DNA of 64,000 nt from Lacunisphaera limnophila (lineage in GTDB: Bacteria; Verrucomicrobiota; Verrucomicrobiia; Opitutales; Opitutaceae): assembly GCF_001746835.1 (NCBI RefSeq), contig NZ_CP016094.1, positions 930,001-994,000 of the forward strand. Direction: 5' to 3'. The notes under the pieces are model-generated. The model saw nothing but the letters and a program-made list of their open reading frames with translations, was not told the DNA's origin and did no database searches. This document shows positions 9,001 to 25,106 of this stretch, in pieces (positions within the stretch are counted from its first letter, which is position 1; the number at the start of each line of letters is the position of its first letter). The position numbers and the translations under genes were made by a program.

Positions 9001-11641
9001 CGTAGCCCCGGAAGAAGTTGGTTTCGTTGTCGTCGACGGTGTAGTCGAGGGTCTGGGTGACGCCACCGACCGACAGCTCCTCATTGATCACCTCGCCGGT
9101 GGTATTGAACTCAAAGGCGAAATCCGTGGCCTCAAAGGTGAAATCGGTGATGCCGTCGATGGTCAGCTCGTCGAAGGTGATCCGGCCAGCCACGCCGGAA
9201 ATGTCCGCCACGGCATCATCCAGGAACAGCACAACGAAGCCGACGCCGGTCACGGAGGCGGTGATGTCTCCGACCGTCAGTTCGGCGGTGAGGCCCGATC
9301 CGCCCACCTTGACCACCTCGGCGCCATCCACGGTACCGGCAAAGAAGGCCAGGCTGGCATCGTTGAGGGCAAAGGAAGCGCCATCGGCTTCCACGCCGAA
9401 ATCGATCGTGCCGCCGATGCTGACGAAGTCGGTCTGGGTGGCCCCGAAGTTGAAGGCGGCCGCCGGGCTGTCGCCCAGCCCGTCAAAGGAGACCGCCCCG
9501 GTGACCGCCCCGGTCGTGTTGATGGCGAAGGTAAAAGCGGAACCACTGAGGGTGACCCCATCAGGCAGCCCGTCGACATCCAGAGTGGTCGCCGACAACG
9601 AACCGGCGACACCGTCATCATTGATGATGAAACCACCGGAAAGGCCGGTGACCCCGATCTTGACCGAACCGGCGGTGAAGGAGGCACTGGTGCCGGAGGC
9701 CCCGCCGATGCCGACCTTGAAGACGCTGGTGTTGGGCGTGACCGCCCCGGCATCCCCGTCATGGTCATAAGAGTACTGCTCAAAGTAGAAGGTGCCGGCC
9801 ACCGCCACCGCCACACCGCCGAAATCAAGGCCAAGGGTCAGGCCACCCGAGACCAGGAAGTACTTCCGCCGGTCGGCGCCGGAGAAGCTTAGCGTATTGC
9901 CGCCGGGCATCACCACGCTGGCCACATCGGCATCGGTCGTGTTGATCTCAAAAATCAGCCCGGACAGGCTCCCGAAGGTATAACCGGTCATCGCGAGGCC
10001 GCCCACCGTCGCCTTGCCGGCGAAACCCGTGCTGCGGATCAGGAAGTCGCCATCGACATCGGTGATCGCCAGACCGATGCCACCGGCGGTCACGCTGGCC
10101 GACAGGTCGGTGACAGTGAAGAGGAGATCATCCGCCTTCCAGGAAAAGGCCAGGGAACCGCTGAGGGTGGCTGAGACCGGGGCGGCGGTGATGGTGAGGG
10201 CGATGGTGGTCTCGACCGTAACGGTGGTGCCGGTGGTCGCCACGACCTTGAGGGTGCCGGTGGCACTGTTGCCCGAAACCCCGGTGGCCCCGATGATCTC
10301 AAGCGACGTGATCGCCACCTGACCGGACATGCCGGCGCTCGAAATCTGGAAGGTGTGGGTGATCGCGCCGCCGATCGTCAGCTTGGCCGTCCCGGTGCCT
10401 AGGGTAATTGTGGCGCTGGTCATGGCCAGGGTCAGGAGCTGGCCAGCCGCGGTGGCTCCATTCGTGTCTGTCACCGCAAATGTAAAATCACCCTGCAGCT
10501 TCAAGCCGGCCGAAGTAAGGGTGATATCGGCCTGGCCGGTGAAGCGGATGAAATTGGAGGCACCGTTGAAGTCCACGGAGAACGCGGTGCCACCGATCGT
10601 GGTGGACCAGGCGGTATCGCCGCCATTGTTCAACGCGGTCGCCGTGTTCACGGAAAGGATCGCATTACCGGTCCCACCGGTCCCGGTCAGGTTGGCAAAA
10701 GAAAAGGTATCGCCGGTACCGGCAGTCAGGCTGGTGATAGCGCTGATGACCATTTGGCCGGCCCCGCCACCCAGGTCATATTCACCCGGGACCCCAACAC
10801 CCGGGCCGGTGTATTTGCCGCTGACCAGGAAGGCACCCTTGCTGGCCGTCAGGGTCAGGGTCGCCCCGCCGGAGGTAAAGGCGACCGTCGCCGCGGTCTC
10901 AAACCATACCCGGAAAACAAACCTGGTTCCGGTCGTATCAAAAGCCGGAGCGTTGCTGTCCGACACATCCAGGTTGCGCTCAAATTTGAAGGTGCCGGTG
11001 ATCGTCAGTTCACCCAGCGAGTATTCGCCGGTGCCCGTGTCAGCCCGCTTCACCATCGTCCCGTACATCGTCACCGTGGAACCGGCACCCGTGTCGAGCA
11101 GCGTCTTGAGGGCCGTGTATTGCGTGTCTCTGGTGGACACCTGCAGACCGGCATCAACGCTCGGATCTAGCAATGCAGTAAAATTGAATCCACCGAACGG
11201 CGGATCCCAAGGATCGAGAACTTCTCCCGTAACTCCAACCGTGTAGCTAGTTACCGACTGGGGCGGGCCGTTTCCAGAGGTGAGAGTGATGACGGCAAGA
11301 TCGGCGGCGCTCGGAACCTCGGGCGCGAGAGGGGCGGTCACGCTCGGGGCGGCCGCGATGGTCTCAGTCACCGGTGCGGTCTCGGATACGACCGTGACGA
11401 CCTCGGTCGTGGCGGCCGGAACCGTGGTGACCGTGGTGTCCACCAGGCTATCGTCTGATGGCATGACCAGGGAATCCATGTCCCCGGAACCAGCGTTTTC
11501 CGTCAGCACTTCGGCGCTCAGGACAGGCGCGGAAGGCTCGTCAAACTTGATCAAACCGTCGCCCACCAGCCCATCACCGGACAACAGCATGCGCTGCTCC
11601 AGGGGCTCCAACATGAATTCTCTTTGACGAAAAACGGACAT
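1..11641 (-). CDS. Giant LEPR-XLL-type repetitive surface/secreted protein (3' end outside window)
   Basis: This is a very long extracellular-type protein, and the window holds about its first 3,880 codons. I translated the frame through the interval and met no stop. An in-frame TAG lies directly upstream of the ATG at 11641; an inner ATG at 11614 is the alternative start. A short basic stretch is followed by LEPLEQRMLLSGD, a match to the LEPR-XLL motif of very long repetitive proteins. No Sec signal peptide is visible. The body is rich in Thr, Ser, Val, Gly and Asp, reads like alternating beta strands, and showed no cysteine in the parts I read. Residues about 1060-1870 hold 140-residue tandem units. 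A proline-rich linker near residue 3,360 (about position 1565) precedes RTX-like motifs such as GGAGNDTVT and GDAGADTFT. It is divergent from the SecA-like/TolC operon, whose substrate it may be. A role in adhesion or a surface coat is inference. Confidence 0.88.
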   Translation of the reverse strand, partial: MSVFRQREFMLEPLEQRMLLSGDGLVGDGLIKFDEPSAPVLSAEVLTENAGSGDMDSLVMPSDDSLVDTTVTTVPAATTEVVTVVSETAPVTETIAAAPSVTAPLAPEVPSAADLAVITLTSGNGPPQSVTSYTVGVTGEVLDPWDPPFGGFNFTALLDPSVDAGLQVSTRDTQYTALKTLLDTGAGSTVTMYGTMVKRADTGTGEYSLGELTITGTFKFERNLDVSDSNAPAFDTTGTRFVFRVWFETAATVAFTSGGATLTLTASKGAFLVSGKYTGPGVGVPGEYDLGGGAGQMVISAITSLTAGTGDTFSFANLTGTGGTGNAILSVNTATALNNGGDTAWSTTIGGTAFSVDFNGASNFIRFTGQADITLTSAGLKLQGDFTFAVTDTNGATAAGQLLTLAMTSATITLGTGTAKLTIGGAITHTFQISSAGMSGQVAITSLEIIGATGVSGNSATGTLKVVATTGTTVTVETTIALTITAAPVSATLSGSLAFSWKADDLLFTVTDLSASVTAGGIGLAITDVDGDFLIRSTGFAGKATVGGLAMTGYTFGSLSGLIFEINTTDADVASVVMPGGNTLSFSGADRRKYFLVSGGLTLGLDFGGVAVAVAGTFYFEQYSYDHDGDAGAVTPNTSVFKVGIGGASGTSASFTAGSVKIGVTGLSGGFIINDDGVAGSLSATTLDVDGLPDGVTLSGSAFTFAINTTGAVTGAVSFDGLGDSPAAAFNFGATQTDFVSIGGTIDFGVEADGASFALNDASLAFFAGTVDGAEVVKVGGSGLTAELTVGDITASVTGVGFVVLFLDDAVADISGVAGRITFDELTIDGITDFTFEATDFAFEFNTTGEVINEELSVGGVTQTLDYTVDDNETNFFRGYGTMTVAFDNGGSFAMDMTGTFAFEVYSYDADGGGGDPAVNVVMFGFENVSFEIAVGTDGLKLVVDDADGFFLFGMNDDVVPVASYAGRLSISAATLEGVTGLEISVTDFNFEVNTFGHEIAAVIVRGDVDTDPDDAGDPDDFELDFTAANRHDFIAIAGTLNLTVELGGFEFTLSGSFSFESTTITYDEGTAEEADVSTLRIGVSGASFGLSVGGEDSLTLEASGITGGILIKADGTVAMKLSIATVSLTGIDGLTFTVTNFFLQLNNTGGAVEENFTFPDGGDLDNDPDVVALDFTDDLFALGGTLSLSLDVGGFAASLTGSFSFEQGAGKMKVAVQNASMSVGVNGVGLAITNVNGLFVLYDGADADPDTDDGTLAMKLSIGSIALTGIDDALTFTVTNFFLQLNTAGDIAQETFTIPDGDDGDGDPDTVTMDYAEDLTLLGGTVELALTVGSFTATINGSFSFEQTTGKMKIAIQNAGMSVSVGDVGLAITGVNGLFVLYDGIDADPDTDDGTLAMQLAIGSIALTGIEDTLTFTVSNFFLKLNTAGDIDEETFTVPDGDDGDSDPDEVTMDFDENLTQLGGTVELALTVGSFTATLGGSFSFEQGTDKMKIAIQNGSVTVGAGDVGLSITEVNGLFVVYDGTDGDADTDDGTLAMQLSIGEVALTGIDGFTFTVTDFFLKLNTAGDIDAEVFTVPDGDDGDEDPDEITMDYADDILQIGGAVLLGLEVGGFSLSIQGGFFFEQGTDKILVGIQDAGIELEAGGVTLLISDVDGLFAIYEGVDDGDADTNDGTLAMKLSVGEVSLDGLDFLTFEVTNFFLNLNTAGDIAAETFTMPDGDDAGPEPDEVTLDFDANILQLGGTVVLGIEAGSLTVELTGTLFFEQATVTDPDTDIESEVIKVAVTDGGLTLGVVEIEDVNGYFIILPEGSAGKLSVGDITVDVGDAFFLSVDDFYLEFNNTGADVEVEFTIPDGIDAGSEDDVVELSFTGDNRHDFVLISGSITIGIADDPDTDEYDPLLELTATGVTIDTGATGAEPIFSAEVLSGTLNLLELGGPITVSARNLAVTADGDLANLDADELFVVEVFFGGTFKENTVTAGPDGEMDTDDDVTTVSEVDQTGEEAPDSADLDFKWPAWMPLKLRHIALEWEDVGANPDDFDLRITAAIDAKIAGLFTVSGYVENLVIDIGDLVAGDFPIKSFDAAALYVSGTAFGLEVSGGFVLGMIDVDANGDDVDDPDYTGLGEIIDTIYFAGLSVKAEMLGRGGVQFGIGLAYIDGEVVPLEVMVGATFPILIEPISGLTLGAFAGRVQFAHTLDQDYETEDGDVDLDALKTVANNPDSAVAPMDMEDWVENLKAATLALTPDSEGASVDVWSQPMTITIKADFYSIYAQPEALYGEMVVSFDTEGRILLAGALTFGGGSVKLNAGLYANLTNVGDGDFSFAFYGSYGPASGTKQFEIEATLKVRTLVGDIDPDTGRAVLRLDGDDNPIVWNSDDYTDAEQATLKLEFGGSVKFVVGGAMVVQVDGTVDMEVDLIGSTGVRLKFNAQVGIVSPTPNPLGEQFGEMAGYISIFENVDDGELELVGAVEVLFKPDTLKDYGIDVTATVTLQINTTDDLAEDVEVEYFDGDTATFDIRANSFSLALQGNLSVGAPGSEPADAFLKMNGFVSIEINSDGLTLIFDVSVELAPGGNTLLALTATGFMRINDDGIAARLDMEMTDNLPEGTGLEFEAQFFLIINTTGKIVEIEVPEYITGDAGYTGPLGVIIPQAAPLIGGDPTIAEGDLDLTAGPDGKLMTSDDTVTLGDLATAQDYYIISAEGSLAAAGLTFEGDFLLIITQEDDGSGGVDTFVQLQINAELEFVALGSIGVNGFLEITDEGAVGLLEVEIDLDALEADLGVAIEAEIYLAFNTYDTDYTVPRAVALNFVTLGDTEQLVLEDNLVQIELRGTISVGSQLVLIGEFIFKKSGSGVNEKTLISVNAIMTLPVLGTLNVDGDLLFVVDNPGTIGTDEGGTVGSLVVTLESDDDLAAIDITYSATISLKVNSTDVSQDDPGDAGTATIDADTVMLDMSGTLTLLGSFTFTGHFYFQKSGTNINIEFDATLSIGFLGTLRATGNFDSDNTGFQAQLTLSIESAAGSTYGFSFSGTLFFAINTKSTNYEVTGLSNLADQTIAPGGTMIVITGQLQLFSTFSLSGTFALTVSPTSTSITLYATLSVFGVGLNVTGSASIITADNGGTIGDERGIVLNLQLRLGTNTNVTMSPVASVMSLTGTFTLQINTTDFANSGIAANSVTIGASVAANIMGFTLASGSLTISISSTGFSIVIPSGSPLSLDFFGFFSLNFYGNLTILTDGSSEFSFTATASVTFLNPDIFGFAGTVSVSFSKSFSGVATVSGSISATFGAFGIKLSAGGNFTFASDGTVSLSVYISLQITPAFTIKIWTPWKTYRINVPALVIGGTWSKTFGTRGAVPAPPPPPDLARMVGNTLYLNVGADAYLRGAAYGAATDESYNLTSAGNGTSTGKKVTVDALGFTKEFDNVTKIVATDTAASNTYIKVDPALNLPVDINVGKAVSGKNHFIVGSGTALVYGGTNDDWVEFGAAGGTYYAGDGEGRIKDHANGNTTVRAPGYTEYVLTDGSLTYGDGANSQTLTFDNDSIKNVVLDGAANAVFETTSLGGSGTDSDIDPNPWTGTATFNGSGSTGTIRATTATSLTLTNTAIIESGVTITLSGMQVAELYGNEDDNSFTISGWTNGGSIDGKGGTDTVIASNNANFTLSDTALTRSTGGSLSLTGIEVATLTGGSSANTFSVSSWTGTATLDGAGGNDAYTINLNTTGGITNVADTAGAADTLVINGTTSADTLTVTSSSVSRSSQVVNYSGIETLTLNAGDNDDAITINSTAVATSIYGDAGADTFTANGNSASLTLSGGAGNDTVTITASTAALTLNGDADDDIFNLRALSAATTVNTGTGTNTVNLGNSSAVVDNLDGALTINGGGT
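6100..8500 (-). repeat. Tandem ~420-bp coding repeats (140-residue units) in the giant gene
   Basis: The landmark encoding FEQ (plus-strand ctgctcgaag or a close variant) recurs at 6341, 6761, 7178, 7598, 8018 and, degenerate, near 8456. The spacings are 420, 417, 420, 420 and about 438 bp. A second landmark encoding TFTVTNFFL recurs with the same period. Each unit contains two acidic segments, typified by DADPDTDDGTLAM and PDGDDGDGDPD, which could bind calcium; that is inference. Units at the edges are more diverged than central ones, consistent with unequal crossing-over followed by drift. Confidence 0.85.
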
Positions 11642-11938: not shown

Positions 11939-13780
11939 ATGCGCGAGTTCCCTTATTCCGAACCCGTGCAAGCCGTCCAACGATGCCGCCAGTATGAAGG
12001 TAATGAGGAAGGATTCTGGCCGCTTTTTACCGAAGCGCTGGCCGAAGCCACCGGGGCCACCCACGTCCTCTTGCTGCGCCGCCAGCTGGAGCCGAACGAG
12101 GGCTGGAAGCCCTTTTCCGCCTGGCCGGCCCGCGAGAAATTCCCCCTCGGAGCCCCCTTGGATGACCCCGGCCTGATGGCCACCTTGGAACGGGCGGTGA
12201 AGGAAGAACTCGCCGAATTCCGCCCGCCGGCGGACCCCAAATCCCCCCTCCCCGCCGTGTCTTTCGACGGCGGCATGCCCGGCTGGCAGTTCACGGCCCT
12301 GTTCCGGCTGCCCGCCCCCGTCCCGGAGGCGGGCGAGTTCGCCCGCCGCGCCGCCCGTCTCCTTGATCTACCCGTACTCTACCGCCGGACCCGCGCCCTG
12401 CGCCAGGCCGGGGAGAGCAACCGCGCCTTTGCCCAGACCTTCGACCTGCTGACCCTCCTGGACCGGCAGACCCGGTTCACGCCGGCCGTCATGACGGTCT
12501 GCAACGAGTTGGCCCGCCAGACCGGCTGCTCCCGCGTTTCCCTAGGCTGGCGTCAGGACGCCTACGTGCGCATCCGGGCCGTCAGCGACCTCCCCCGTTT
12601 CGAGCCCAAGATGGAGGTCGTGCGCCAGCTCGAGACCGCGATGGAGGAGGCCTGCGACCAGGACGAGGAGATCATCCTGCCCGAGCCCGACGACGCGACC
12701 TATGTGGCGCGCGACCACCAGCAATTTGCCCGGACCCAGGGCGTGGCCTACCTGGCCACCCTGCCCCTGCGCGTGGACGAACGCCCGGTGGGCGCCCTCC
12801 TGCTGGAACGCCAGGACCGCGCCTTCTCCGCGGGTGAGATCACCGCGCTGCGGGTCGTGCTCGACCGGGCCAGCCGGCGGATTGACGAACTCGAACGGCA
12901 CGACGGCAGCCTGCCGCGCCGCGCCGCCCGGGCCACCCGGGCGCAACTCGCCAAGCTTCTCGGCCCCGAGCACACCTGGTGGAAGGCGGCCGGCGCCCTC
13001 ACCGCCCTCCTGCTCCTGCTGTCTGTCGTCTGCACCTGGCCCCACCGGGTCGAGGGCAGCTTTGTGGTGCGCAGTGACACGCTGGTGAACCTCCCCGCCC
13101 CCTTTGAAGGTTATATTACCGAGGTGCCGGTGCGCGTGGGCGACCCGGTCCGGACGGGCGACCTGCTTATCCGCCTGGATAAGCGGCAGCTCCTCCTTGA
13201 GCAAGGTTCGCTGACCGCCGAACTCGCCCGCCATGAGGCCCAGCGGGCCCAGGCCGAGGTCGAACGCCGGCTGGCCGAGATGCGGGCCGCGGCCGCCGCC
13301 AAGGAGCAGGCCCAGGCCAGCCTCGATATCGTCCGCTTCCGTCTGAGCCGCGCCGACATCGTCGCCCCGGCCGACGGGGTGGTGGTCGAGGGCGACCTGC
13401 GCGAGCGCATCGGCACGCCGGTCAAGGCCGGCGACCTCCTCATGCGCGTGACCCGCATCGAGGCCATGTATGTCGAAATTGAGGTCCCCGAGCGCGACGC
13501 CCATGCCGTGCTCGCCAGCCGGCGCGGCGAGATCGCCTTCGCCACCCTGCCCGGTGAACGCCACCCCATTGTCATCGACCGCCTCGAGCCCGTCGCCCGC
13601 GTGAAACCCGAGGGCAATGTCTTCGTTCTCCGCGCCCGGATCACCGCCCCCAACGACCGGGCGGTCTGGTGGCGCCCCGGCATGAGCGGCGTGGCCAAGG
13701 TGGAGGCCGGGGACCGCCGCATTCTCTGGCTGCTGACCCATCGTCTCGTGGATTACATCCGCCTGAAGCTCTGGCTCTGA
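11939..13780 (+). CDS. GAF-domain HlyD-like membrane fusion protein
   Basis: The 613-residue protein joins a cytoplasmic sensor-like half to a periplasmic adaptor half. Residues about 165-310 resemble a GAF domain. One strong transmembrane segment lies at about 349-367. After it comes a barrel-sandwich/lipoyl-type half (LVNLPAPFEGYITEV), an Ala/Glu/Arg-rich coiled coil, the second lipoyl half (IVAPADGVVVEGD) and a beta-barrel portion. HlyD-family adaptors link an inner-membrane energy source to a TolC channel. The start is fixed by an in-frame TGA three codons upstream. It is the first gene of the export operon, 4 nt before the M50 fusion. The GAF part could bind a small ligand that gates export; that is inference. 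Confidence 0.8.
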   Translation: MREFPYSEPVQAVQRCRQYEGNEEGFWPLFTEALAEATGATHVLLLRRQLEPNEGWKPFSAWPAREKFPLGAPLDDPGLMATLERAVKEELAEFRPPADPKSPLPAVSFDGGMPGWQFTALFRLPAPVPEAGEFARRAARLLDLPVLYRRTRALRQAGESNRAFAQTFDLLTLLDRQTRFTPAVMTVCNELARQTGCSRVSLGWRQDAYVRIRAVSDLPRFEPKMEVVRQLETAMEEACDQDEEIILPEPDDATYVARDHQQFARTQGVAYLATLPLRVDERPVGALLLERQDRAFSAGEITALRVVLDRASRRIDELERHDGSLPRRAARATRAQLAKLLGPEHTWWKAAGALTALLLLLSVVCTWPHRVEGSFVVRSDTLVNLPAPFEGYITEVPVRVGDPVRTGDLLIRLDKRQLLLEQGSLTAELARHEAQRAQAEVERRLAEMRAAAAAKEQAQASLDIVRFRLSRADIVAPADGVVVEGDLRERIGTPVKAGDLLMRVTRIEAMYVEIEVPERDAHAVLASRRGEIAFATLPGERHPIVIDRLEPVARVKPEGNVFVLRARITAPNDRAVWWRPGMSGVAKVEAGDRRILWLLTHRLVDYIRLKLWL

Positions 13781-13784
13781 CGCG

Positions 13785-15941
13785 ATGGCCGACGCCCCGC
13801 AGATGTTCAGTGAGTCCTGGCACCGCATTGCGGCCCAGCGCCTGCAGCTGCGCCCCGGCGTCGAGGTGCGCCGCCAGCAATACCGGGGCGAACTCTGGTA
13901 TGTCGTCCAGGATCCCTTCACCAACGCCTTCTACCGCATCCGGCCGGGGGCCCGGCGCCTGCTGCTGCATCTGACCGGCCGCGCCACCGTCGAGGAGGCC
14001 TGGCGCCGCTGCCTACGCGAGGACCGGGAGTCGGCGCCGGGGCAGTCCGAAGTGATCCAGCTGCTCGGCCAGCTGCACCAGGCCAGCCTGCTGCAATCCG
14101 ACCTCGCCCCGGACAGCCGGCAGCTCTTCGAGCGCCTGCGCCGCCACCAGCAGGCCCAGGTCCGCAGCACGTTGAGCAGCGTGCTCTTCCTCCGCATCCC
14201 GCTGTGGGATCCGGATCGTTTCCTGCAACGGCTCCTGCCGCTCGTCCGCCCCGCCTTCGGCTGGGCGGGCTTCGCGGTGTGGGCGGTCGTCGTGCTGCTC
14301 GCCGCCAAGACGGCCATCGACCACCGCGACCAGCTCTTCACCCGCGGCCAGGAAGTGCTCGCCCCGGGCAACCTCGCGCTGCTGTTCGGCGCCTTCTTTG
14401 TCACCAAGCTCCTCCACGAATTCGGCCACGCCTTCGCCTGCCGGGTCTTTGGCGGGCAGGTGCACCAGATGGGCATCATGCTGCTGGTGTTCAGCCCCGT
14501 GCCCTATGTGGACGCCACCGCCAGCTGGGCCTTCCGGGAGCGCTGGCGGCGGGTGTGGGTCGGCGCCGCCGGTATGTATGTGGAACTCTTCGTCGCCTCG
14601 CTGGCGGTCTTCGTCTGGGCGAACACCGGCAGCGGGATGACCAACAGCCTCGCCTACAATATCCTCTTCGTGGCCTCCGTCAGCACGCTGCTCTTCAACC
14701 TTAACCCGCTGCTGCGCTTCGACGGGTATTACCTGCTCTCCGACCTGACCGAGACCCCCAACCTGCACCAGCGCAGCCGCACCCAGATGTTCAGCTGGGC
14801 GGAGCGGGGGCTGTTCGGCCTGGCCGACACCCCGCAACCGGCCTCGACCCGCCGCGAGGCCGCCTTCCTCGGCCTGTTCGGCATCGCCTCCGGCATCTAC
14901 CGGATCTTTGTCTTCACCGTCATCATCCTGTTTGTGGCCGACAAGTTCTTCGGGCTCGGCCTGCTGGCCGCCGCCGTGGGCGCCTTCTCGCTGCTGGTGC
15001 TGCCGGTCTGGAAATTCGGGCGCTACCTGGCGCGGGAGCCGCGGCTCGGCCGGCAGCGCCCGCGCGCCATCGCGGTGACCCTGGGCGCGCTGGCGTTGGT
15101 CACGGCCTTCCTGGCTCTCTACCCGTGGCCCCACCACACCTACGCCCCCGGCGTCCTCCAAACCCGGGAACAGGCGCGGGTCTACACCGCCGCCGACGGG
15201 TACCTCACGGAGATGACCGCCGTGTCGGGCTCGACGGTGCGGGCGGGCGATCTGCTGGTCCGGATGACCAACCCCGAGCTCGAGTTGCGCCTCGTCTCCG
15301 CCGAGGCGCGCGTCCGGCAGGTGCGCCTGCAGGAAAATGTGGCCCTCGAGCAAGGCGGCGCCGGCCTGCGCGTGCTGCAGCGCCAGCGCGAGTCGGCAGA
15401 GGCCGAGCTGGCCGACCTGCGGCAACGGCGGGGCGAGCTCGAGATCCGCGCGCCGATGGATGGCGTCTGGGTCGCGCCCCGCGCCGCTGACTTGGTGGGC
15501 GAACTCACCTCCCGCGGCCGGCAGCTCGGGATCGTGATCGATCCGCCGGACTTTGAATTCACCGCCATCGTGGCGCAGGACGACTCCGCCCGGCTGTTCG
15601 CGTATGCCGGCACCGCCGCCGAGATCCGCCTGCCGGGCCAGGCCGCCCGGCCCATTGCGGTCAGCCAGGTGCAGCTCGTGCCCGGCCGGCAGAACCTCCT
15701 CCCCACGGCCGCCCTCGGCTGGTCCGCCGGCGGACCCGTGAAGATCCAGCCCGGGGATCCCGACGGCGTACAGACGGCGGAGCCCTACTTCAAGGCGATC
15801 GCCCGGGTCGGCGTGCCGGGTGACGCCGCATTGCTGCACGGGCAAACCGGCCTCATCCGCTTCACCACCGGCACGGAACCCCTCCTGCAACAGGGCTGGC
15901 GCCGTTTCCGCCAGCTCTTGCAGCAGCGCTACCAGCTCTGA
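13785..15941 (+). CDS. PqqD-like / M50 site-2-type metalloprotease / HlyD-like fusion
   Basis: The 718-residue polytopic protein has three parts. Residues about 25-100 resemble a PqqD-like domain, as in putative peptide zinc metalloprotease proteins. The membrane part carries the zinc motif HEFGH at 211-215 and NLNPLLRFDG at about 304-314, the paired M50 signatures, so the protease appears intact. The C-terminal third (about 450-700) is a periplasmic barrel-sandwich adaptor with a short coiled coil, containing VYTAADGYLTEM and LEIRAPMDGVWV. It starts 4 nt after the GAF-HlyD gene and ends 9 nt before the SecA-like gene. It may process or hand over a substrate during export; the substrate is inferred, not shown. 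Confidence 0.8.
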   Translation: MADAPQMFSESWHRIAAQRLQLRPGVEVRRQQYRGELWYVVQDPFTNAFYRIRPGARRLLLHLTGRATVEEAWRRCLREDRESAPGQSEVIQLLGQLHQASLLQSDLAPDSRQLFERLRRHQQAQVRSTLSSVLFLRIPLWDPDRFLQRLLPLVRPAFGWAGFAVWAVVVLLAAKTAIDHRDQLFTRGQEVLAPGNLALLFGAFFVTKLLHEFGHAFACRVFGGQVHQMGIMLLVFSPVPYVDATASWAFRERWRRVWVGAAGMYVELFVASLAVFVWANTGSGMTNSLAYNILFVASVSTLLFNLNPLLRFDGYYLLSDLTETPNLHQRSRTQMFSWAERGLFGLADTPQPASTRREAAFLGLFGIASGIYRIFVFTVIILFVADKFFGLGLLAAAVGAFSLLVLPVWKFGRYLAREPRLGRQRPRAIAVTLGALALVTAFLALYPWPHHTYAPGVLQTREQARVYTAADGYLTEMTAVSGSTVRAGDLLVRMTNPELELRLVSAEARVRQVRLQENVALEQGGAGLRVLQRQRESAEAELADLRQRRGELEIRAPMDGVWVAPRAADLVGELTSRGRQLGIVIDPPDFEFTAIVAQDDSARLFAYAGTAAEIRLPGQAARPIAVSQVQLVPGRQNLLPTAALGWSAGGPVKIQPGDPDGVQTAEPYFKAIARVGVPGDAALLHGQTGLIRFTTGTEPLLQQGWRRFRQLLQQRYQL

Positions 15942-15950
15942 CCGGCCGCG

Positions 15951-17945
15951 ATGACCCCGACCGCCGAGCATGTCCGCACCCGGGTGATGCCCCCGCCGCC
16001 CCTGCATGAAGGGGCCGATGCCTGGGTCCACCAAGGGATCGGCTGGTGGCGGCGCCGGCAGTATGCGCGCCCGGACTTCGCCGCGCTGGCCGCCCGGCTG
16101 CATGCCGAGCACGCCACGCTCGCCAGTCTGCCTGACAAGACCCTCGACGAGCGCCTGGAATCGCACCGCCGGCAGGTCCGACGCCACCGGCACGACTGCC
16201 TCGCCCAGGCCACCGCGGCGCTGCCGATCGTGGCCGAGGCGGCCCGGCGTGAACTCGGCCTTGATCCCTACCCCGCCCAGTTTCAAGGCGCCCTGGCGCT
16301 CTTGCATGGCACGTTGGCCGAGATGGCCACCGGCGAAGGCAAGACCCTCACCATCGCCCTTGCCGCCGCCCCGCTCGGCTGGACCCAGCTGCCGGTGCAC
16401 ATCCTCACCGCCAACGACTACCTCGCCCGGCGCGATGCCGCCAACCTGGCCCGTTTCTACGCCCGCTGCGGTCTCGACAGCGGGCGCGTGCTGGCCCCGA
16501 TGGCCCCCCCGGAGCGCGCGGAAAACTACGCCGCGGGGATCGTCTACACCACCGGCAAGGAACTGCTCGCCGACTTTTTGCGCGACCGCCTGCTGCTCGG
16601 TCCCTGGCAGGATGCCGCCCGGCGCGTTGCGCGCCGGCACTTCGGCGCGTCGCTGCCCGCCTCCGTCGGCCGCACGGTGCTGCGCGGCCTCCACCACGTC
16701 ATCGTCGACGAAGCCGACAACCTGCTCATCGATGAGGCCGTCACCCCGCTGATCATCAGCCGCGAGTCGGAAAATCCCGCACTGGTGGAAGCCGTACAGG
16801 CCGCGCACCGGCTGGCCGCCGCGCTCGCGGAAGGCTCCGACTACAAGGTGGACGAACGCCGACGGCAGGTTGAACTCACCGAGGCCGGGCTGGACCGGCT
16901 CGCCCGCGAGGCGGGGTCCACCGGCAGCGCGCTGCTTGAGCACCGCCACTGGCGCCGGGAACTGGTCGAAACCGCCCTGAAGGCGCGCCACTTCTACCAC
17001 CGCGACAAGCAGTACGTGGTGGCCGACGGCACCGTGGTGATCGTGGATGAATTCACCGGCCGGCTCATGCCCGGCCGCCAGTGGAAGCAGGGTCTCCACC
17101 AGGCCGTCGAGGCCAAGGAGGGCGTGCCGGTGACCCAGCCCTCCGAGTCGATCGCCCAGCTGAGCTACCAGTCCTTTTTCCGTCTCCTGCCCCGGGTCAG
17201 CGGCATCACCGGCACCGCGCGGGAATGCGCCCGCGAGATCTGGGCCGTGCACCGCCGGCCGTTCTGCGTGATTCCCCGGCACCGGCCCGGCCGTTTCCGG
17301 CCCGAGGCGACGCGGGTGTTTGCGCGGGCAGCCGGGAAATGGGACGCCGTGGTCGCCGCCATTGCCGAGTGTCACGCCACCGGCCGGCCGGTTCTGGTCG
17401 GCACCCGCAACATCGCGGCCAGCGAGGAACTCGCGCAGCGGTTGCGCGAACGCGCCATCCCGTTCCACCTGCTGAACGCCAACCGCCATCAGGAGGAGGC
17501 GATGATCGTCGAGCGGGCCGGCGAGCGCGGCTCGGTCACCCTCGCGACCAACATGGCCGGCCGCGGCACCGACATCCGGCTGGGCGAGGAGTCGGCCGCC
17601 CTCGGCGGGCTCCTGGTCATCGCCACCGAACCCCATCGCTCGGGCCGTATCGACCGGCAGCTCTTCGGCCGCGCGGCCCGCCAAGGTGATCCGGGCAGCG
17701 GCCAGCTCTTCCTGAGTTGTGAGGATGAGCTCCTGACCGACTTTTTGCCGGTCACCATAAACCGTCTGCTCCGGCTCGCGCTTGCCCAACGCTGGCCGGG
17801 AGCCCGTCTGGCGGGAGTCGCGGCTTGTCGGTGGGCCCAGTCGCGCGCCGAGCGCGCCGCCTATCGCCAACGGCTCGCGGTTTTCCAGCAGGATCGCTGG
17901 ATTCAAGACAATTTGAGTGCGGGACGCCCTGATTTTTCACCCTGA
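15951..17945 (+). CDS. SecA-like translocase ATPase, C-terminally shortened
   Basis: SecA is the ATPase that drives preproteins through SecYEG. This 664-residue homologue keeps Walker A TGEGKT (127-132), VDEAD (252-256) followed by LLIDEAVTPLIIS, a preprotein-crosslinking-like insert, EFTGRLMPGRQW, and the NBD2 motif TNMAGRGTDI (533-542) followed by GRAARQGDPGSG. Housekeeping SecA is usually about 850-1,000 residues. This one stops near the first long scaffold helix (QDRWIQDN region), so the helical wing, the two-helix finger and the zinc-binding tail are missing. No SecA-like continuation is apparent in 17946-18049, so it looks like a designed short form. Its place between the adaptors and TolC suggests it powers the export operon. 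Confidence 0.85.
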   Translation: MTPTAEHVRTRVMPPPPLHEGADAWVHQGIGWWRRRQYARPDFAALAARLHAEHATLASLPDKTLDERLESHRRQVRRHRHDCLAQATAALPIVAEAARRELGLDPYPAQFQGALALLHGTLAEMATGEGKTLTIALAAAPLGWTQLPVHILTANDYLARRDAANLARFYARCGLDSGRVLAPMAPPERAENYAAGIVYTTGKELLADFLRDRLLLGPWQDAARRVARRHFGASLPASVGRTVLRGLHHVIVDEADNLLIDEAVTPLIISRESENPALVEAVQAAHRLAAALAEGSDYKVDERRRQVELTEAGLDRLAREAGSTGSALLEHRHWRRELVETALKARHFYHRDKQYVVADGTVVIVDEFTGRLMPGRQWKQGLHQAVEAKEGVPVTQPSESIAQLSYQSFFRLLPRVSGITGTARECAREIWAVHRRPFCVIPRHRPGRFRPEATRVFARAAGKWDAVVAAIAECHATGRPVLVGTRNIAASEELAQRLRERAIPFHLLNANRHQEEAMIVERAGERGSVTLATNMAGRGTDIRLGEESAALGGLLVIATEPHRSGRIDRQLFGRAARQGDPGSGQLFLSCEDELLTDFLPVTINRLLRLALAQRWPGARLAGVAACRWAQSRAERAAYRQRLAVFQQDRWIQDNLSAGRPDFSP

Positions 17946-18049: not shown

Positions 18050-19597
18050 ATGCATCAACGTCTCCTTCCCGCTGTCCTCGCCCTTGGTCTCGTCACGGTC
18101 TCCGCCTCCGGGCAGCCTGATCCGACACCCGCGGGCAACGCCCCCTTGGTCCTGACCATGAACGAGGCCGTGGTCCGGGCCCTCGACGCCAACCTGGAGG
18201 TCTCCATCGAACGCCTGAAACCGCAAATCGCGGAGCAGCGCCGGATGCAGGCCCTGAGCGCCTTCGACCCGCGGCTGGACGTCAGCACTGTCGTGGAGTC
18301 GCTCGAGCGCCCGCAAAACACCCGCGACTTCTTCGCCACCGGCCGCGCCGTGGAGATCATGAGCGAGGACAACGTCCGCATCGAAGGCAGCCTGGGCGGC
18401 CTGCTCCCCACCGGCACGCGCTACAATGTCACGATCCGCTCCTACCAGCTGAAGAACACCCTCAATCGGGAGGCGCTCGCCCGTTTCTATCCCGAGTACA
18501 CCAGCAGCACCACGTTCACGGTGTCCCAGCCCTTGCTGCGCGGCGCCGGTCTGAAGGCCAACATGGCCGAGACCCGCATCGCCGAGATGGAACTGCGCGG
18601 CGCCGAGCAGGGCCTGCGCGGGCGTGTCGACCAGATCGCCACGAGCGTCCTCGACGCCTACATTGAATCGCTCTACGCCCGCGAGCTGGTGCGGGTGATC
18701 ACCGATCGCATCGCGCTGGCCGAGCAGCTGCGCGTCGAGAATGACAAGCGCCTCCGCCAGGGCCTCATGGCCCCGATCGACGTGATGCAGGCCGAGTCCA
18801 CCAAGGCCGCGGCCGAGATCGAGCTCATCCGCGCCCAGTCCTTCCTGGTGGAGACCGAGAACCGCCTCCGCGAACTGATCTTCAGCGACTTCGTCGCCGC
18901 GGTGGACACGGACTTCGACCTGGTGGACCGCCTCGGGGTGGTTGCCCTGAATGAATCCCTGCCCGCCCTGCGCAACCTCGCGCTGGAGCACAACGCCGAG
19001 TACCAGGTCGCCCTGCAACGCGTGGAGGCCGAGAAGCTGCGCGTGCGCCACGCCCGCAACCAGTTCCTGCCCCGGCTGGACCTGCAGGCCTCCGTCGGCC
19101 TCAACGGCCTCGGCGGCGACATCGGCACGAGCTTCAGCGATTACGGCGAGCGGACCCAGCCTGACTTCACGGTCGGTTTCGTCGGTTCCCTGCCCATCAC
19201 CTTCACCGCCGAGCGGGCCCGGCTGCGCGAGATGCTCTTCCGCCTGCGCGAGGCGGAGACGGAGGTGCGCCGCACGACCAACCGCCTCTACGCGCAGGTG
19301 CACACCGCCCACACCCGCGTTTCCTCCGCCATGCTGCGCGCCGCCTCCTCGGCCCGCGCCGTGGCCGCAGCCGAGGCCTCCCTCGACGCCGAGCAGAAGC
19401 GCCTGGCGAACGGCCTCACCACCAGCTTCAACGTGCTGCGCCTGCAGGATGAACTGGCCCAGGCTCGCGTGAACCAACTCGAGGCCGTGGCCGAGGGCCA
19501 GAAGGCGCTCGCCATCCTCTGGGGCGTCACCGGCGTGCTCTTCGAACGCTATCAGATCAACCTCGTGGAAGCGCCCGGCGCCGCCCGCCGCTCATGA
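18050..19597 (+). CDS. TolC-family outer-membrane channel protein
   Basis: TolC-like proteins form the trimeric outer-membrane duct of type I secretion and efflux systems. From ATG 18050 the protein is 515 residues with a clear signal peptide (MHQRLLPAVLALGLV, cleavage near ASGQ). It then shows the two-fold helical repeat of the family, including LTMNEAVVRALDANLEV near the N-terminus and a long Ala/Glu/Arg-rich helix near the C-terminus. A TTG at 17969 and an ATG at 17996 are in frame but would put hydrophilic sequence before the signal peptide. It is about 100 nt after the SecA-like gene, and its stop overlaps the next start by 4 nt (ATGA). It is the only outer-membrane channel of the operon. 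Confidence 0.85.
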   Translation: MHQRLLPAVLALGLVTVSASGQPDPTPAGNAPLVLTMNEAVVRALDANLEVSIERLKPQIAEQRRMQALSAFDPRLDVSTVVESLERPQNTRDFFATGRAVEIMSEDNVRIEGSLGGLLPTGTRYNVTIRSYQLKNTLNREALARFYPEYTSSTTFTVSQPLLRGAGLKANMAETRIAEMELRGAEQGLRGRVDQIATSVLDAYIESLYARELVRVITDRIALAEQLRVENDKRLRQGLMAPIDVMQAESTKAAAEIELIRAQSFLVETENRLRELIFSDFVAAVDTDFDLVDRLGVVALNESLPALRNLALEHNAEYQVALQRVEAEKLRVRHARNQFLPRLDLQASVGLNGLGGDIGTSFSDYGERTQPDFTVGFVGSLPITFTAERARLREMLFRLREAETEVRRTTNRLYAQVHTAHTRVSSAMLRAASSARAVAAAEASLDAEQKRLANGLTTSFNVLRLQDELAQARVNQLEAVAEGQKALAILWGVTGVLFERYQINLVEAPGAARRS

Positions 19598-20328
19598 AGC
19601 TGCTGCCGCTGTTCGCCGCCCTGCTCACCCCGGTGCTCCTGCCGGCGGCGCCCGCCGCCGAGGGCGTGCTCCTGCCGTTCCGGGAAGTGACCGTCAGCTC
19701 GGCGGTCCAGGGGATCCTCGCGGCCGTCAATGTCCGGGAAGGCGACGCGGTCGCCACCGATGCCCTGCTCGCGACGCTCATCGACCGGGTCGAGGCCGCC
19801 GAGGTGGCCCGCTTCGCCAAGATCCTCGAGCAGCGCGAATTCGCCGCCCTCGGCACGCAGAACCTTTTCCGCGACCAGGTCGTGAGCGAGGGTGAAGCCA
19901 TCGAGAAGCGCATCGAGCGCGATATCGCGAAACTCCAACACCAGATCGCCCTGGAGCAGCTCGACCGCCGCAAGATCCGCTCGCCCATCGACGGCCTGGT
20001 CGTCGAGAAGAAGAAGGAAGCCGGCGAGGCCGTGGACGAGAACGAACCCGTTTTCCACCTCGTCGACATCAGCCGCGTCTACCTCCAGGTGTTTGTCGAC
20101 GCCAGCGAGGCGCTGAAGCTCAAGGCCGGCCAGCGCCTGCCCGTCGCTTTTCCCGAACACCAGATCCCGCCGCACGACGGCATCATCGACTTCATCGACC
20201 CGCGCATCGACGGCGCCAGCGGCCTCGTCCGGATCAAGATCCTCATCGACAATGCCGGGCGCACCCTCATCGCCGGCATGCGCGGCCGCGTGAACCTCGC
20301 CGAGGCCTCCGCGCCGACCACCCCTTGA
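19594..20328 (+). CDS. Periplasmic adaptor (HlyD/RND-type membrane fusion) protein
   Basis: The 244-residue protein begins with a signal peptide (MKLLPLFAALLTPVLLPA, then APAAEG), followed by a lipoyl-like half (VSSAVQGILAAVNVREGD), a short helical hairpin, the second half (IRSPIDGLVVEKKKEAGE) and a beta-barrel part. It lacks a second membrane segment, so it is probably soluble in the periplasm or anchored by an uncleaved signal. It is translationally coupled to the TolC gene. As the third adaptor of an operon with one TolC and no pump, it may complete the periplasmic tunnel. Confidence 0.8.
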   Translation: MKLLPLFAALLTPVLLPAAPAAEGVLLPFREVTVSSAVQGILAAVNVREGDAVATDALLATLIDRVEAAEVARFAKILEQREFAALGTQNLFRDQVVSEGEAIEKRIERDIAKLQHQIALEQLDRRKIRSPIDGLVVEKKKEAGEAVDENEPVFHLVDISRVYLQVFVDASEALKLKAGQRLPVAFPEHQIPPHDGIIDFIDPRIDGASGLVRIKILIDNAGRTLIAGMRGRVNLAEASAPTTP

Positions 20329-21240: not shown

Positions 21241-22224
21241 ATGCCGGCCAAGATCCACGCCCCCACTCCCACCAATCTGCGCCGGCTGGCCGCCGTCCTG
21301 CGGCGCGGCGGACTGGTCGCGATCCCGACCGAGACGGTCTACGGGCTGGCGGCCCACGCCTTGGATGCCCGGGCCTGCCGCGCGATCTTCCGGGCCAAGG
21401 GCCGTCCCGCCAACGACCCGCTCATCGTCCATGTGCTCGGCCTCGCCCAAGCCGAGGAACTCGCGGAGTTCAATGACGCAGCGCGCCTGCTCACCCGGGC
21501 CTTCTGGCCGGGACCGCTGACCCTCGTGCTGCCGAAAAAGCCCGTGGTGCCCGGCATCGTGACGTCCGGCGGAGCGACCGTGGCCCTGCGCGCGCCCGCG
21601 CATCCGCTTGCGCGCCGCCTGCTGCGACTCGCCGGCGTGCCCTTGGCGGCACCGAGCGCCAATCCTTTCAGCTACATCAGCCCGACCACCGCGGCCCACG
21701 TGCAGCAGGGCCTGGGCGCGCGCATCGCGCACATTCTCGATGGCGGCGATTGCGCCATCGGCGTCGAATCCACCGTGGTCGATCTCACCACCCCGGCCAG
21801 ACCACGGGTACTGCGACCCGGCGCGATCAGCGCGGCGCAGCTCGCCCGCGTGCTGGGGCGCCCGGTCGTCACCCGGCGGCGCGCCGCCCCTCCCGGCACC
21901 ACCCTCTCAGCCCCGGGCTTGCTCGAGAAACACTACAGCCCGCGCACACCCTTGCACCGCATGGTACACCCGGGGAAACCGGCCGCCGGCACGGCCGTAA
22001 TCCGGTTGCGCCAACCGGCCGGTCCCATGCTACCCGCCGTGTATTGGCTCAGCCGGCGCGGCTCCCTGTCTGAAATCGCGCGGAATCTCTATCGGGTGCT
22101 GCGTCAGGCCGATGCCGGCGGTCATCGCCGGATCGTGATCGAGCCGCTGCCGCCCACGGCGGGAGGACTCGCCGCGGCGATCAACGACCGGATCGGCCGG
22201 GCCGCGGCCAAACGGCCGGCCTAG
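21241..22224 (+). CDS. L-threonylcarbamoyladenylate synthase (Sua5/TsaC family)
   Basis: The enzyme makes threonylcarbamoyl-AMP from threonine, bicarbonate and ATP, the first step of t6A37 tRNA modification in the cytoplasm. The 327-residue protein has the YrdC-type fold motifs: GGLVAIPTETVYGLA near residue 23, KGRPANDPLIVHV, and AAPSANPFSYISPTTA. A shorter C-terminal Sua5 domain follows (GLLEKHYSPRTPLHRMV). That makes it a long Sua5-type rather than short TsaC-type member. ATG 21241 was chosen over a GTG at 21220. Its TAG stop overlaps the stop of the convergent Wzc-like gene within ctag. Confidence 0.88.
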   Translation: MPAKIHAPTPTNLRRLAAVLRRGGLVAIPTETVYGLAAHALDARACRAIFRAKGRPANDPLIVHVLGLAQAEELAEFNDAARLLTRAFWPGPLTLVLPKKPVVPGIVTSGGATVALRAPAHPLARRLLRLAGVPLAAPSANPFSYISPTTAAHVQQGLGARIAHILDGGDCAIGVESTVVDLTTPARPRVLRPGAISAAQLARVLGRPVVTRRRAAPPGTTLSAPGLLEKHYSPRTPLHRMVHPGKPAAGTAVIRLRQPAGPMLPAVYWLSRRGSLSEIARNLYRVLRQADAGGHRRIVIEPLPPTAGGLAAAINDRIGRAAAKRPA

Positions 22225-24434
22225 CGGGCGTCGGGCTCGCCGTCCTGCTTCGCCATCGTCACGTAGTAGTCCTTGTAGGACTTGTCGTAATACTGGGCGT
22301 AGTAGTAGCCGGAGACCGCGAGATTCAGGCCGTTGAGCACGGCGCCGAAGCAAGGCACGTTCGCCTCCAGGAGCTTGCGGGCGCTGAACTGCGCGGCCTT
22401 GCGGCGGACGCGGTTGAAGAAAATGGTGAAGATCGAGCCATCCACCAGCGGGAGGATGATCAGCGCATCGCTGACCGCGGCCAGCGGCGGGGTGTCGATG
22501 AAGACGCGGTCGTAGCGCTTGCGCAGATCGGCGAGCAGGTGCTCGAAATTGCGGCTATTGAGAATCTGGGTCGGGTTTTTCGCGCGGCCACCGGCCGGGA
22601 TGACATCGAGGTTCGGGTGCACGCCCTTGATCACGACCTGGTCGATGGTGTGGGTGCCGGCGCAGACATCGATGACGCCCTTGATGTTCTCGAGGCGGAA
22701 GGATTTATGGATGTTCGGCTTCCGGAGATCGCAATCGATGACGACGACCTTCTCCCCGTGGGCGGCAAAGGTGAGCGCCAGATTCGTGGTGGTGAAGGAT
22801 TTGCCCTCACCCGGGATGGTGCTGGTGACCAGGATGGCCTGCGCGGCCTTGCTCTCGTCCTTGAGCCGCAAGCTGGAGTGCAGGGTGAGGAAGGACTCGA
22901 CCACCTGCTTGTCCTGATTGTTGATGACAATCTGCGCCTTGTCCGGCTGGTCCATGCGCTTGATCTCGGGGATGATGCCGACCAGCGGCAGGCCGATCAC
23001 CGACTCGATGTCGAACGAGCTCTTCACGCGGTCGTCCACGTAGGCGACGAAGAAGGCGAACGCAGTGCCGAGGGCCAGGCCGCCAAGGAAACCGAGGGCC
23101 AGGTTCAGCAGGACGTTGGGGGAGGCGGGCTTCAGTGCCGGGCTGGCGCGGTCCACCACGCGGGCGCTTTGTGTCTCGATGGTGCTGCTCATCGAGGTCT
23201 CGCGCATGCGGGAGAGCAGCGTGTTCAGGAGGTGTTCGTTGATCGCGAGGTCGCGCTCGAGATTGGAGTACTCCACGGCATCACGGTCGAGGTCGAGCGA
23301 CTCCTTTTCCTGGCGCGCGAGGTTGGCCCGGGCGTCCTCGTCGTTGCGGCGCGCGGTCTGGAAGTCGGCTTCCACCGTCGCGGCCATGGAATCAATTGCC
23401 CGGCCGAGTTCCTTTTCGGTCTGGGTCAGGGAATTGTGCGCCTCGATCATCCGCGGGTGCTTGTCGCGGTAGCGCTCCCGCATCTGGGCGAGCACGATCT
23501 TCTGGGCGGCGACCTGCTGCACCAGCTGCACGATCAGGGACTGGCTGGCGATGAAAGGGAGTTCCAGCAGGAGGGCCGGCGTCGCCTTGCGTTCCTGCAC
23601 CTGGCGCCAGCGGACCTCGGCCTCGTTGAGCCGCGAGGTGGTCTGGGTGACATAGGCGTTCAGCGCCTTGAGCTTCTCGGTGACGATGTCCTTGCGCTGG
23701 TCGAGCGAGACCTGCTGGTTCTTCTCGCGGTAGTTTTGGAGGATGATGGCCATCTCCTCGACGCGCTTTTTCTGCTGGTCGGCGCGCTCCTTGAGATCAT
23801 CCACGGCCTTCATCGAATCCTCGATGCGCAGGCGGGAGTTGTAGGCGATGTACTCGTCGATGAAGAGATTGGCCACCTTCGCGGCCATGAGTTTGTCCGG
23901 GTGGGAGAACTGGACCTGCAGCACGAGGCTGAGGCGCACGGGGACGATCTTGCGGTTGAGGTAAACCACCTCGGCGGCGGTGATGGGGACCTCGGCGCCC
24001 GGGCTCTTGAACGGAGCCATGAACAGTTCCAGGTCGGCCCCGGTCAGCCGGTCCGCGACCCGCTGCACGATGGCCAGGCTCTCGAGCACCTTCACCTGGG
24101 TGTTCAAATCCTCGGCGGAGCGGATCTCGTTGTTGACGACGCTCTGCACCTGCATGACGACGGGGTCGTTGCGGAAGACCTGCACGCTGGCCACCGAGGT
24201 GTAGCGGGGGACGCGGGTAAAGGTGAAGATGACCGCGGCCGAGAAGACCAGGGCGAAGACCAGCACGATATACCAGACGCGCTCCCGCAGGATCAGCAGG
24301 TAGTCCTGCATGCTGCGGTGCATCTGGCTCTCGCCCTGCCCCAGGACCCCGTAGCCGCCCTGGCCGCCGCCATAATAGGCCGGATAGGCCTCGCCGGGAC
24401 CCTGTACCTTGTCTGCCTTGGGTGCGTTTTCCAT
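22221..24434 (-). CDS. Wzc/ExoP-type polysaccharide chain-length regulator and tyrosine autokinase
   Basis: This inner-membrane protein controls polymerisation and export of capsule or exopolysaccharide. The 737-residue protein has a cytoplasmic N-terminus, a first transmembrane segment (IVLVFALVFSAAVIFTF), a Wzz-like periplasmic domain with long coiled coils, a second segment (NLALGFLGGLALGTAFAFFV), and a BY-kinase domain with Walker A GEGKS (about 542-546) and Walker A-prime VVIDCDLRKP. The C-terminus is a tyrosine cluster (GYYYAQYYDKSYKDYY), the usual autophosphorylation site. The start is ATG 24434; an upstream extension would overlap the Wza-like gene 10 nt away. It is probably translated with that gene. 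Confidence 0.9.
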   Translation of the reverse strand: MENAPKADKVQGPGEAYPAYYGGGQGGYGVLGQGESQMHRSMQDYLLILRERVWYIVLVFALVFSAAVIFTFTRVPRYTSVASVQVFRNDPVVMQVQSVVNNEIRSAEDLNTQVKVLESLAIVQRVADRLTGADLELFMAPFKSPGAEVPITAAEVVYLNRKIVPVRLSLVLQVQFSHPDKLMAAKVANLFIDEYIAYNSRLRIEDSMKAVDDLKERADQQKKRVEEMAIILQNYREKNQQVSLDQRKDIVTEKLKALNAYVTQTTSRLNEAEVRWRQVQERKATPALLLELPFIASQSLIVQLVQQVAAQKIVLAQMRERYRDKHPRMIEAHNSLTQTEKELGRAIDSMAATVEADFQTARRNDEDARANLARQEKESLDLDRDAVEYSNLERDLAINEHLLNTLLSRMRETSMSSTIETQSARVVDRASPALKPASPNVLLNLALGFLGGLALGTAFAFFVAYVDDRVKSSFDIESVIGLPLVGIIPEIKRMDQPDKAQIVINNQDKQVVESFLTLHSSLRLKDESKAAQAILVTSTIPGEGKSFTTTNLALTFAAHGEKVVVIDCDLRKPNIHKSFRLENIKGVIDVCAGTHTIDQVVIKGVHPNLDVIPAGGRAKNPTQILNSRNFEHLLADLRKRYDRVFIDTPPLAAVSDALIILPLVDGSIFTIFFNRVRRKAAQFSARKLLEANVPCFGAVLNGLNLAVSGYYYAQYYDKSYKDYYVTMAKQDGEPDAR

Positions 24435-24444
24435 GGGATGCAGG

Positions 24445-25035
24445 TTAGAGCAGGCGCTCGGGCACGAAGATGACGTCGCCCTTGGTGAGGTACCACTGTT
24501 CACCCGAACCTTGCTTCATCAGCTCGTCGACATTGACGGTAAAATTCTCGGTCCGGCCGTCGGTGGTGGTGCGCGACAGGCGCACCTTGCGCAGGTCCGC
24601 GATGCGAGACTGGCCGCCGGCACGGGCGATGGCCTCGACCAGGGTCAGTTTCTGCTCCGGCGGGAAGGGCACCGCGCCGGGCCGGTTAACCGCCCCGACC
24701 ACCTGCACCGTGCTCTCGGAGTACTCCATCACGGTCAGGTTCACCTGCGGGTTGACGAGGTAATCCTTGTCGTAAAGGGCGCGAATCAGCTCCTCGGTCT
24801 GGCGCACGGTGCGGTCCTTGACCTCCACAGTGCCGATCAGGGGCAGCGTAATCGTGTTTTCCTGCGTGATGCGCACCACCCGCTCCAGATCCTCCTCCTG
24901 GAAGATCTGCACGCGGACCAGGTCGGACGGACGCAGGATGTAGTCGGTGTTAGCCTGCGTCTGGGCGGACAGGGAAACCACCAGACCGAGCATGAGCCCG
25001 GCGGTGCGCAGGGTACGGGAGACGAGACGGCTCAT
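24445..25035 (-). CDS. Wza-type polysaccharide export protein (SLBB domain)
   Basis: The 196-residue secreted protein has a signal peptide (TAGLMLGLVVSLSAQTQA) and a Poly_export domain (ILRPSDLVRVQIFQEEDL), followed by an SLBB-type segment (VQVVGAVNRPGAVPFP). Such proteins form the outer-membrane channel for capsule or exopolysaccharide. At 196 residues it is shorter than Wza (about 380) and has no lipobox cysteine, so it resembles the short EpsE/GumB-like export proteins. It lies 10 nt upstream of the Wzc-like kinase gene and 15 nt downstream of a terminator hairpin. Confidence 0.88.
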   Translation of the reverse strand: MSRLVSRTLRTAGLMLGLVVSLSAQTQANTDYILRPSDLVRVQIFQEEDLERVVRITQENTITLPLIGTVEVKDRTVRQTEELIRALYDKDYLVNPQVNLTVMEYSESTVQVVGAVNRPGAVPFPPEQKLTLVEAIARAGGQSRIADLRKVRLSRTTTDGRTENFTVNVDELMKQGSGEQWYLTKGDVIFVPERLL

Positions 25036-25050
25036 GATTGGATTCAGGAA

Positions 25051-25087: not shown

Positions 25088-25106
25088 GGACAAGGGGAAA
25101 TCCGAC

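Follow-up and report, generated by a model that had tools for sequence, protein, structure and literature searches.

In 64,000 nucleotides of the Lacunisphaera limnophila genome (hereafter the window), the gene at 15951-17945 (+) encodes a short SecA with both nucleotide-binding domains and the crosslinking domain, which ends before the two-helix finger, the helical wing, and the zinc tail. We give about an even chance to the reading in which this protein serves as the ATPase of a dedicated, type-I-like secretion cassette, with the adjacent giant LEPR-XLL protein as cargo. At the level of sequence, our results establish the domain content, the truncation, the association of cassette and tag, and the intact ATPase and HExxH motifs. 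The module itself has been known since 2015; its link to a probable LEPR-XLL cargo is probably new, as far as our searches reach.

Domains and stable end of the short SecA

The open reading frame starts with ATG and codes for 664 residues. The Pfam scan placed SecA_DEAD at residues 40-431, SecA_PP_bind at 282-387, and the best stretch of P-loop_SecA at 454-548. SecA_SW and SEC-C were not found in the short SecA at E ≤ 1; the same scan detected both in the housekeeping SecA of the genome (C1:488-490 kb). An AlphaFold2 model, built from an alignment of the window protein and 55 relatives, had a mean pLDDT of 91.3 and a pTM of 0.89. It aligned to residues 14-617 of the SecY-bound Bacillus subtilis SecA (6itc_A; 595 residues, rmsd 3.5 Å, Z 40.9), which indicates that the short SecA stops within the scaffold domain, before the wing and the finger. 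The sole part of the scaffold domain, according to DSSP on the model and column conservation, is a terminal helix at residues 618-656 (17802-17918, +). The sequence-only reading had described a SecA paralogue with NBD1, NBD2, and the crosslinking domain, on which Pfam and AlphaFold2 agree; Pfam, the model, and the structural alignment all bear out its view that the protein ends after the first scaffold helix, and the model lacks the finger, the wing, and the zinc tail. The clamp parts, which hold the polypeptide chain in SecA, are kept, and the finger is not (PMC6599042).

The Walker A (GEGK) and DExD residues and the C-terminal motor motifs occupy invariant positions across the 56 aligned short SecAs, which come from many phyla. 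With the housekeeping SecA model TIGR00963 the protein scored 520 bits (threshold 800). Four SecA2 models were far under their cut-offs (451.5/1085, 413.9/725, 406.8/930, and 354/1100 bits), and these scores together with the architecture led us to reject SecA2 as its identity.

Three missing domains could be taken as the mark of a decayed or frameshifted SecA gene, a reading that we regard as extremely improbable. The 56 aligned proteins span 635-680 residues. The 55 relatives among them were drawn from 61 with complete frames, leaving out L112, L127, L150, L160, L177, and L181; all 61 span 586-691 residues, with starts chosen by script. The family shares a C-terminal signature (A-Q...R...D-x-W-L...L-x-F); the window protein deviates from it at a few places, having D-R-W-I and an A in place of the final F. 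A tblastn search of the window for the housekeeping tail gave no remnant, the best E being 0.87. The sequence-only reading had called a recent frameshift unlikely; as relatives across many phyla keep a stable length and a stable end, it is now excluded more firmly. Together with the invariant motifs, the separate clade described below, and the conserved neighbourhood, this led us to reject decay.

A quick tree with 60 rows, of which 58 differ, placed 31 short SecAs on one side of a branch with SH-aLRT 99. On the opposite side were 24 housekeeping SecAs, along with a Virgibacillus SecA2, two further plasmid SecAs, and two short SecAs of a second kind. A phylogeny against housekeeping SecA and SecA2 had been suggested from the sequence alone; in this tree, whose SecA2 was that of Virgibacillus, the short SecAs were separate from it and from the 24 housekeeping SecAs. 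Phyla are intermixed within the short SecA clade, which points to gene transfer in its history. Among 57 genomes (its own and those of relatives), one other, G036, had a full-length match of this type, at 50% identity.

The cassette and its distribution

Five genes follow one another on the + strand. A GAF-HlyD adaptor (11939-13780; Pfam GAF and HlyD_D23/HlyD_3) is followed by an M50-HlyD membrane protein with an HExxH motif (13785-15941), the short SecA, a TolC-type outer-membrane channel (18050-19597; Pfam OEP, 141 bits), and a second periplasmic adaptor of HlyD/RND type (19594-20328; TIGR01730, 119.2 bits, cut-off 94.9). They are spaced by 4, 9, and about 100 bases, and the last two overlap by 4; the start at 18050 is a chosen ATG, the mechanical open reading frame beginning at 17969. 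In the M50-HlyD, H211, E212, and H215 are invariant in 57 aligned sequences. The Pfam M50 score of the window protein is slightly under the cut-off (25.8 bits against 27.2), and the family was matched in 55 of the 57 homologues at E ≤ 0.01. The Pfam scan found no ABC transporter among the five proteins. A single SecY was found in the genome. Near the cassette there is probably an exopolysaccharide locus, with a Wzz/GNVR-type kinase, a polysaccharide export protein, and a putative beta-barrel protein (22221-26222, −).

The search for the M50-HlyD matched 65 of 288 genomes of the phylum. We called matches of ≥300 bits type A (19 genomes) and those of ≤265 bits type B, a class that includes weak partial matches; the boundary was set post hoc, once the scores were known. 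The 19 type A loci that were fetched comprise 18 from this search and G036, G224 not being among them. The short SecA adjoins the M50-HlyD in 18 of the 19; at the exception, L081 (G137), a 729-codon SecA frame of the short kind lies on a different contig.

A scan of named genomes gave at least 590 confirmed M50-HlyD stretches. Among the best 80 of these, 70 had a short SecA homologue at the locus, two of them degraded. Seven of the remaining 10 stretches stop no more than 460 bases away from the M50-HlyD gene; the genomes of L117, L124, and L164 have a short-type SecA frame elsewhere, in L117 just a 549-codon piece. By record title, the best 80 include Verrucomicrobia, Desulfo-groups, Nitrospirota, Elusimicrobia, Spirochaetes, Gamma- and Betaproteobacteria, Magnetococcales, Fibrobacter, Planctomycetota, Acidobacteria, Myxococcota, and others; as the best scorers, these loci are biased towards close relatives of the query. 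The cassette is also present on alphaproteobacterial plasmids. Two short SecAs carry other labels in public records, "prepilin peptidase" (NZ_CP085155.1, 317513-319537) and, in Mesorhizobium ciceri, "DEAD/DEAH box helicase". The L152 genome (G347, a Rubrivivax MAG) has six short SecA frames and eight tag matches, which suggests one set per giant protein.

It had been proposed from the sequence alone that the short SecA is coupled to another membrane partner, perhaps the M50 or GAF proteins encoded beside it. Conservation of the neighbourhood, at 70 of the best 80 of at least 590 loci, supports coupling to M50-HlyD and GAF-HlyD, which had also been put forward in 2015 (PMC4452313). That a missing finger would mean no use of SecY is less well supported: a similarly cut SecA, SecA-N68, binds SecYEG, and the genome has one SecY.

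Two of the cassette homologues have degraded ATPase motifs, L149:11413-13539 (Azohydromonas) and L157:12340-14913 (Pseudacidovorax). Both are from Burkholderiales, and five ATPase motif patterns all failed to match them, with a Walker A-like sequence still discernible in L157. They share 35% identity over 400 residues, and on that basis may be maintained pseudo-ATPases. Elsewhere in the L149 genome there is an ordinary short SecA; no further short SecA was found in the L157 genome.

Type B loci differ in their SecA content. No SecA was found in 19 of the 20 fetched type B stretches, and the other, L096, has a SecA of the second kind. The search of 21 type B genomes revealed a single full-length SecA frame in 19, two ambiguous frames in G285, and none in G288. 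No other motor was recognized by eye in the open frames of four type B loci. The second lineage of short SecAs (frames of 596-640 codons) was seen at L084:11130-12998, L096:7170-8960, and G261:C159:1634-3436. Those of L084 and L096 occur with a type-B-like M50-HlyD and belong to the housekeeping side of the tree; that of G261 adjoins a tagged giant frame.

The giant LEPR-XLL protein and its tag

The neighbour that tells most about the short SecA, and on which the sequence-only reading is silent, is a giant LEPR-XLL protein, whose gene is divergent to the cassette and starts about 300 bases upstream. It occupies 1-11641 (−) of the window, continues beyond it to genome position C1:914813, and codes for 8942 residues without a cysteine. 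Its RTX repeats form 6 + 23 PF00353 stretches, none within the first 3880 residues. The LEPR-XLL tag is N-terminal, lies at 11561-11617 (−), and scored 24.7 and 29 bits in two scans with NF012209 (cut-off 17).

NF012209 was above its cut-off in 24 of the 288 genomes of the phylum. The tag was present in 18 of the 19 genomes with a type A M50-HlyD and in six of the 269 others (Fisher p 1.5e-22, which is only a guide because the genomes are related, and which assumes that both scans drew the same 288 genomes, as their group, number, and handles match). In five of those six the frames span 138-636 codons, and G261, the sixth, has one of 7111 codons. Tag and M50-HlyD share a contig in 14 of the 18 genomes and lie within 14 kb of each other in 12 of these 14; the distance is 30 kb in G230 and 148 kb in G072. 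Within the fetched type A stretches, 10 of 19 contain a tagged open frame, four of the 10 being seeds of the tag model. Across phyla, the tag occurred in 25 of 30 cassette genomes, picked for diversity from the 80 named loci, and in none of 14 control genomes at the same threshold. In Pseudosulfitobacter, a 38,757-bp neighbour is annotated by NCBI as "LEPR-XLL domain-containing protein", and in Mesorhizobium ciceri a 31,557-bp neighbour starts with the tag. The longest tagged open frames of the 288 genomes reach 20,466 codons. The Methylorubrum extorquens AM1 megaplasmid carries a giant gene, but we rejected a link to it, since the tag was not found on that record and the SecA there (L217) is closer to housekeeping than to short SecA.

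A simple hydropathy scan of 33 tagged frames (among them two of the type B locus L095 and two same-genome pairs) found no ordinary signal peptide, with L132 borderline. The most hydrophobic 12 residues start at or after the tag, with hydropathies of 0.5-2.3; by this crude test the signal peptides of the window TolC and HlyD proteins have values of 2.4 and 2.1. Only L132, at 2.29, is above the lower value, and its hydrophobic stretch is within the tag itself. Cysteine amounted to 0.8 per 1000 residues in 29 tagged frames of ≥390 residues (L095 left out), 11.7 in the short SecAs, and 4.0 in the TolC-type frames.

The candidate reader of the tag is a PqqD-like stretch at residues 39-103 of the M50-HlyD (13899-14093, +). 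Its Pfam PqqD match is weak, 16.0 bits against a cut-off of 23.4; that of the homologue L082 is above the cut-off (27.1), and 17 of the 57 M50-HlyD sequences matched at E ≤ 0.01, the window protein not being one of the 17. The PqqD fold consists of strands and then helices, and the M50-HlyD model has predicted strands and then helices at residues 20-105. Of the 25 plasmid matches listed, five carry a PqqD annotation. Foldseek with the same model had HlyD-type adaptors among the 50 matches listed.

Variant tags were seen near type B loci. By neighbouring frames, six of the 20 stretches had LE[DE]R-x-LF (four of the six being seeds of that variant model), two had LESR-x-LF, one (L095) had LE-x-LE-x-R-x-LLAG, and none was seen in 11. 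The stretches of L088, L089, L092, L094, L102, L104, L097, and L101 have such LE[DE]R-x-LF or LESR-x-LF frames and contain no short SecA. The tag variant thus tracks the type of M50-HlyD even where no SecA is near, which suggests that the M50-HlyD, rather than the SecA, reads the tag. That it does so through its PqqD-like part is a proposition that we hold at even odds.

Possible roles of the short SecA and known systems

The giant protein is very probably the cargo of the cassette. In the route that we propose, the PqqD-like domain of the M50-HlyD would receive the LEPR-XLL tag of this protein. The short SecA would dock on the M50-HlyD, on the sole SecYEG of the cell, or on both, clamp the unfolded chain, and, having no two-helix finger, use ATP hydrolysis to push or ratchet it; in the first case it would bypass SecY. 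The way out would be a conduit made up of the TolC-type channel with the HlyD parts, the tag could be cut at the M50 site, and the RTX repeats would fold outside. That the SecA powers the export seems to us somewhat probable. This exporter reading is favoured by the short SecA kept beside the M50-HlyD in nearly all type A loci, the association of tag and cassette across genomes, five proteins without an ABC transporter, a cysteine-free cargo bearing RTX repeats, the invariant motor residues, and an M50-HlyD whose N-terminus is PqqD-like and whose type the tag variants follow. It is weakened by the five of 30 cassette genomes without a tag, the distant tag in G072, the PqqD match under the cut-off in the window, and the L132 stretch, as hydrophobic as a signal peptide. 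The motor role in particular is weakened by type B cassettes that have a related tag and no short SecA, by the degraded motifs of L149 and L157, and by SecA-N68, which is unable to translocate (PMC5603524).

The short SecA might instead act on SecYEG and not on the M50-HlyD, as a tag-specific SecA that feeds the giant chain into the ordinary channel; pulling would be done by the housekeeping SecA or by folding outside, and the HlyD and TolC parts would act from the periplasm onwards. The single SecY, the presence of a housekeeping SecA, the resemblance of the model to the SecY-bound state of 6itc, and the binding of SecA-N68 to SecYEG and signal peptides (PMC5603524) are consistent with this. 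However, the part of SecA that enters SecY is the finger (PMC6599042), which the short SecA lacks, its gene neighbourhood links it to the M50-HlyD, and the tagged proteins had no ordinary signal peptide in the simple scan; we think this role unlikely. A clamp kept, a finger lost, the behaviour of SecA-N68, and one SecY fit an M50-HlyD motor and a tag-specific partner of SecYEG alike. If the short SecA were a chaperone, gate, or targeting factor, the drive would come from elsewhere, for example from calcium-dependent RTX folding outside. Type B cassettes without a short SecA, and the L149 and L157 homologues, would fit such a role, but the ATPase residues invariant in 56 proteins of many phyla argue against it, and we consider it quite improbable.

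The exporter reading, taken further, would describe a distinct secretion system, in which a LEPR-XLL leader is read by a PqqD-like/M50/HlyD protein, exit is in one step through a TolC-type channel, and a fingerless SecA replaces the ABC transporter, with LEDR-x-LF sister cassettes that have no dedicated SecA, and with cysteine-poor giants. This we put forward tentatively, at somewhat less than an even chance. Joined to the LEPR-XLL giants, the module offers a testable export route for predicted proteins that rank among the largest of bacteria. The searchable literature named no export route for LEPR-XLL giant proteins, and no link between tag and SecA was found in it (coverage: few subscription papers, bioRxiv preprints not included). 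In the accessible text of these sources, a Vibrio protein of about 8000 residues has LEPR-XLL and RTX parts (PMC10868602), and the LEPR-XLL domain is named in passing (PMC9611531). A connection to polymorphic toxins was rejected, as the accessible text of PMC3482391 gave no link.

The window protein belongs to the "secondary SecA_DEAD" proteins, encoded beside HlyD, GAF-HlyD, and M50-HlyD genes, whose role was called "completely unknown" (Kamneva, Poudel, & Ward, 2015; PMC4452313); in the accessible literature the phrase recurs in one other paper. Like the window locus, that module has a SecA_DEAD protein without the wing-scaffold domain (SecA_SW), the same neighbours, and sometimes an OEP. 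For that module, a clade apart from housekeeping SecA and related to actinobacterial SecA2 was described. Those authors proposed SecA in place of the ABC ATPase and the M50 protein as pore. Their account, as far as its text was accessible, differs from ours, which adds the cargo, the tag, the PqqD part, more phyla, a modelled structure, and another lineage of short SecAs; a term search of that text found none of the words giant, LEPR, PqqD, and RTX. The cassette resembles the type I secretion system (HlyB-HlyD-TolC) in its HlyD adaptors, TolC-type channel, and RTX-type candidate cargo, and differs from it in the lack of an ABC transporter among its proteins and in the candidate N-terminal tag (PMC4452313).

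Like the SecA2 of Gram-positive bacteria, the short SecA is a second SecA next to the housekeeping one. Unlike the SecA2-SecY2 system, no second SecY was found in this genome, and the SecA2 of Clostridioides difficile retains scaffold, wing, and finger, only the C-terminal tail being missing (PMC7503281). The nearest experimental parallel is SecA-N68, an artificial Escherichia coli SecA cut at residue 610, which binds SecYEG tightly, binds signal peptides, has constitutive ATPase activity, and does not catalyse translocation (PMC5603524). Both proteins have NBD1, the crosslinking domain, and NBD2, lack wing and finger, and end at nearly the same place. Unlike the man-made SecA-N68, the short SecA is natural, carries an extra scaffold helix whose end is conserved, and comes with partners of its own. 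A natural SecA without a finger provides a means to ask whether the finger or the clamp moves polypeptides.
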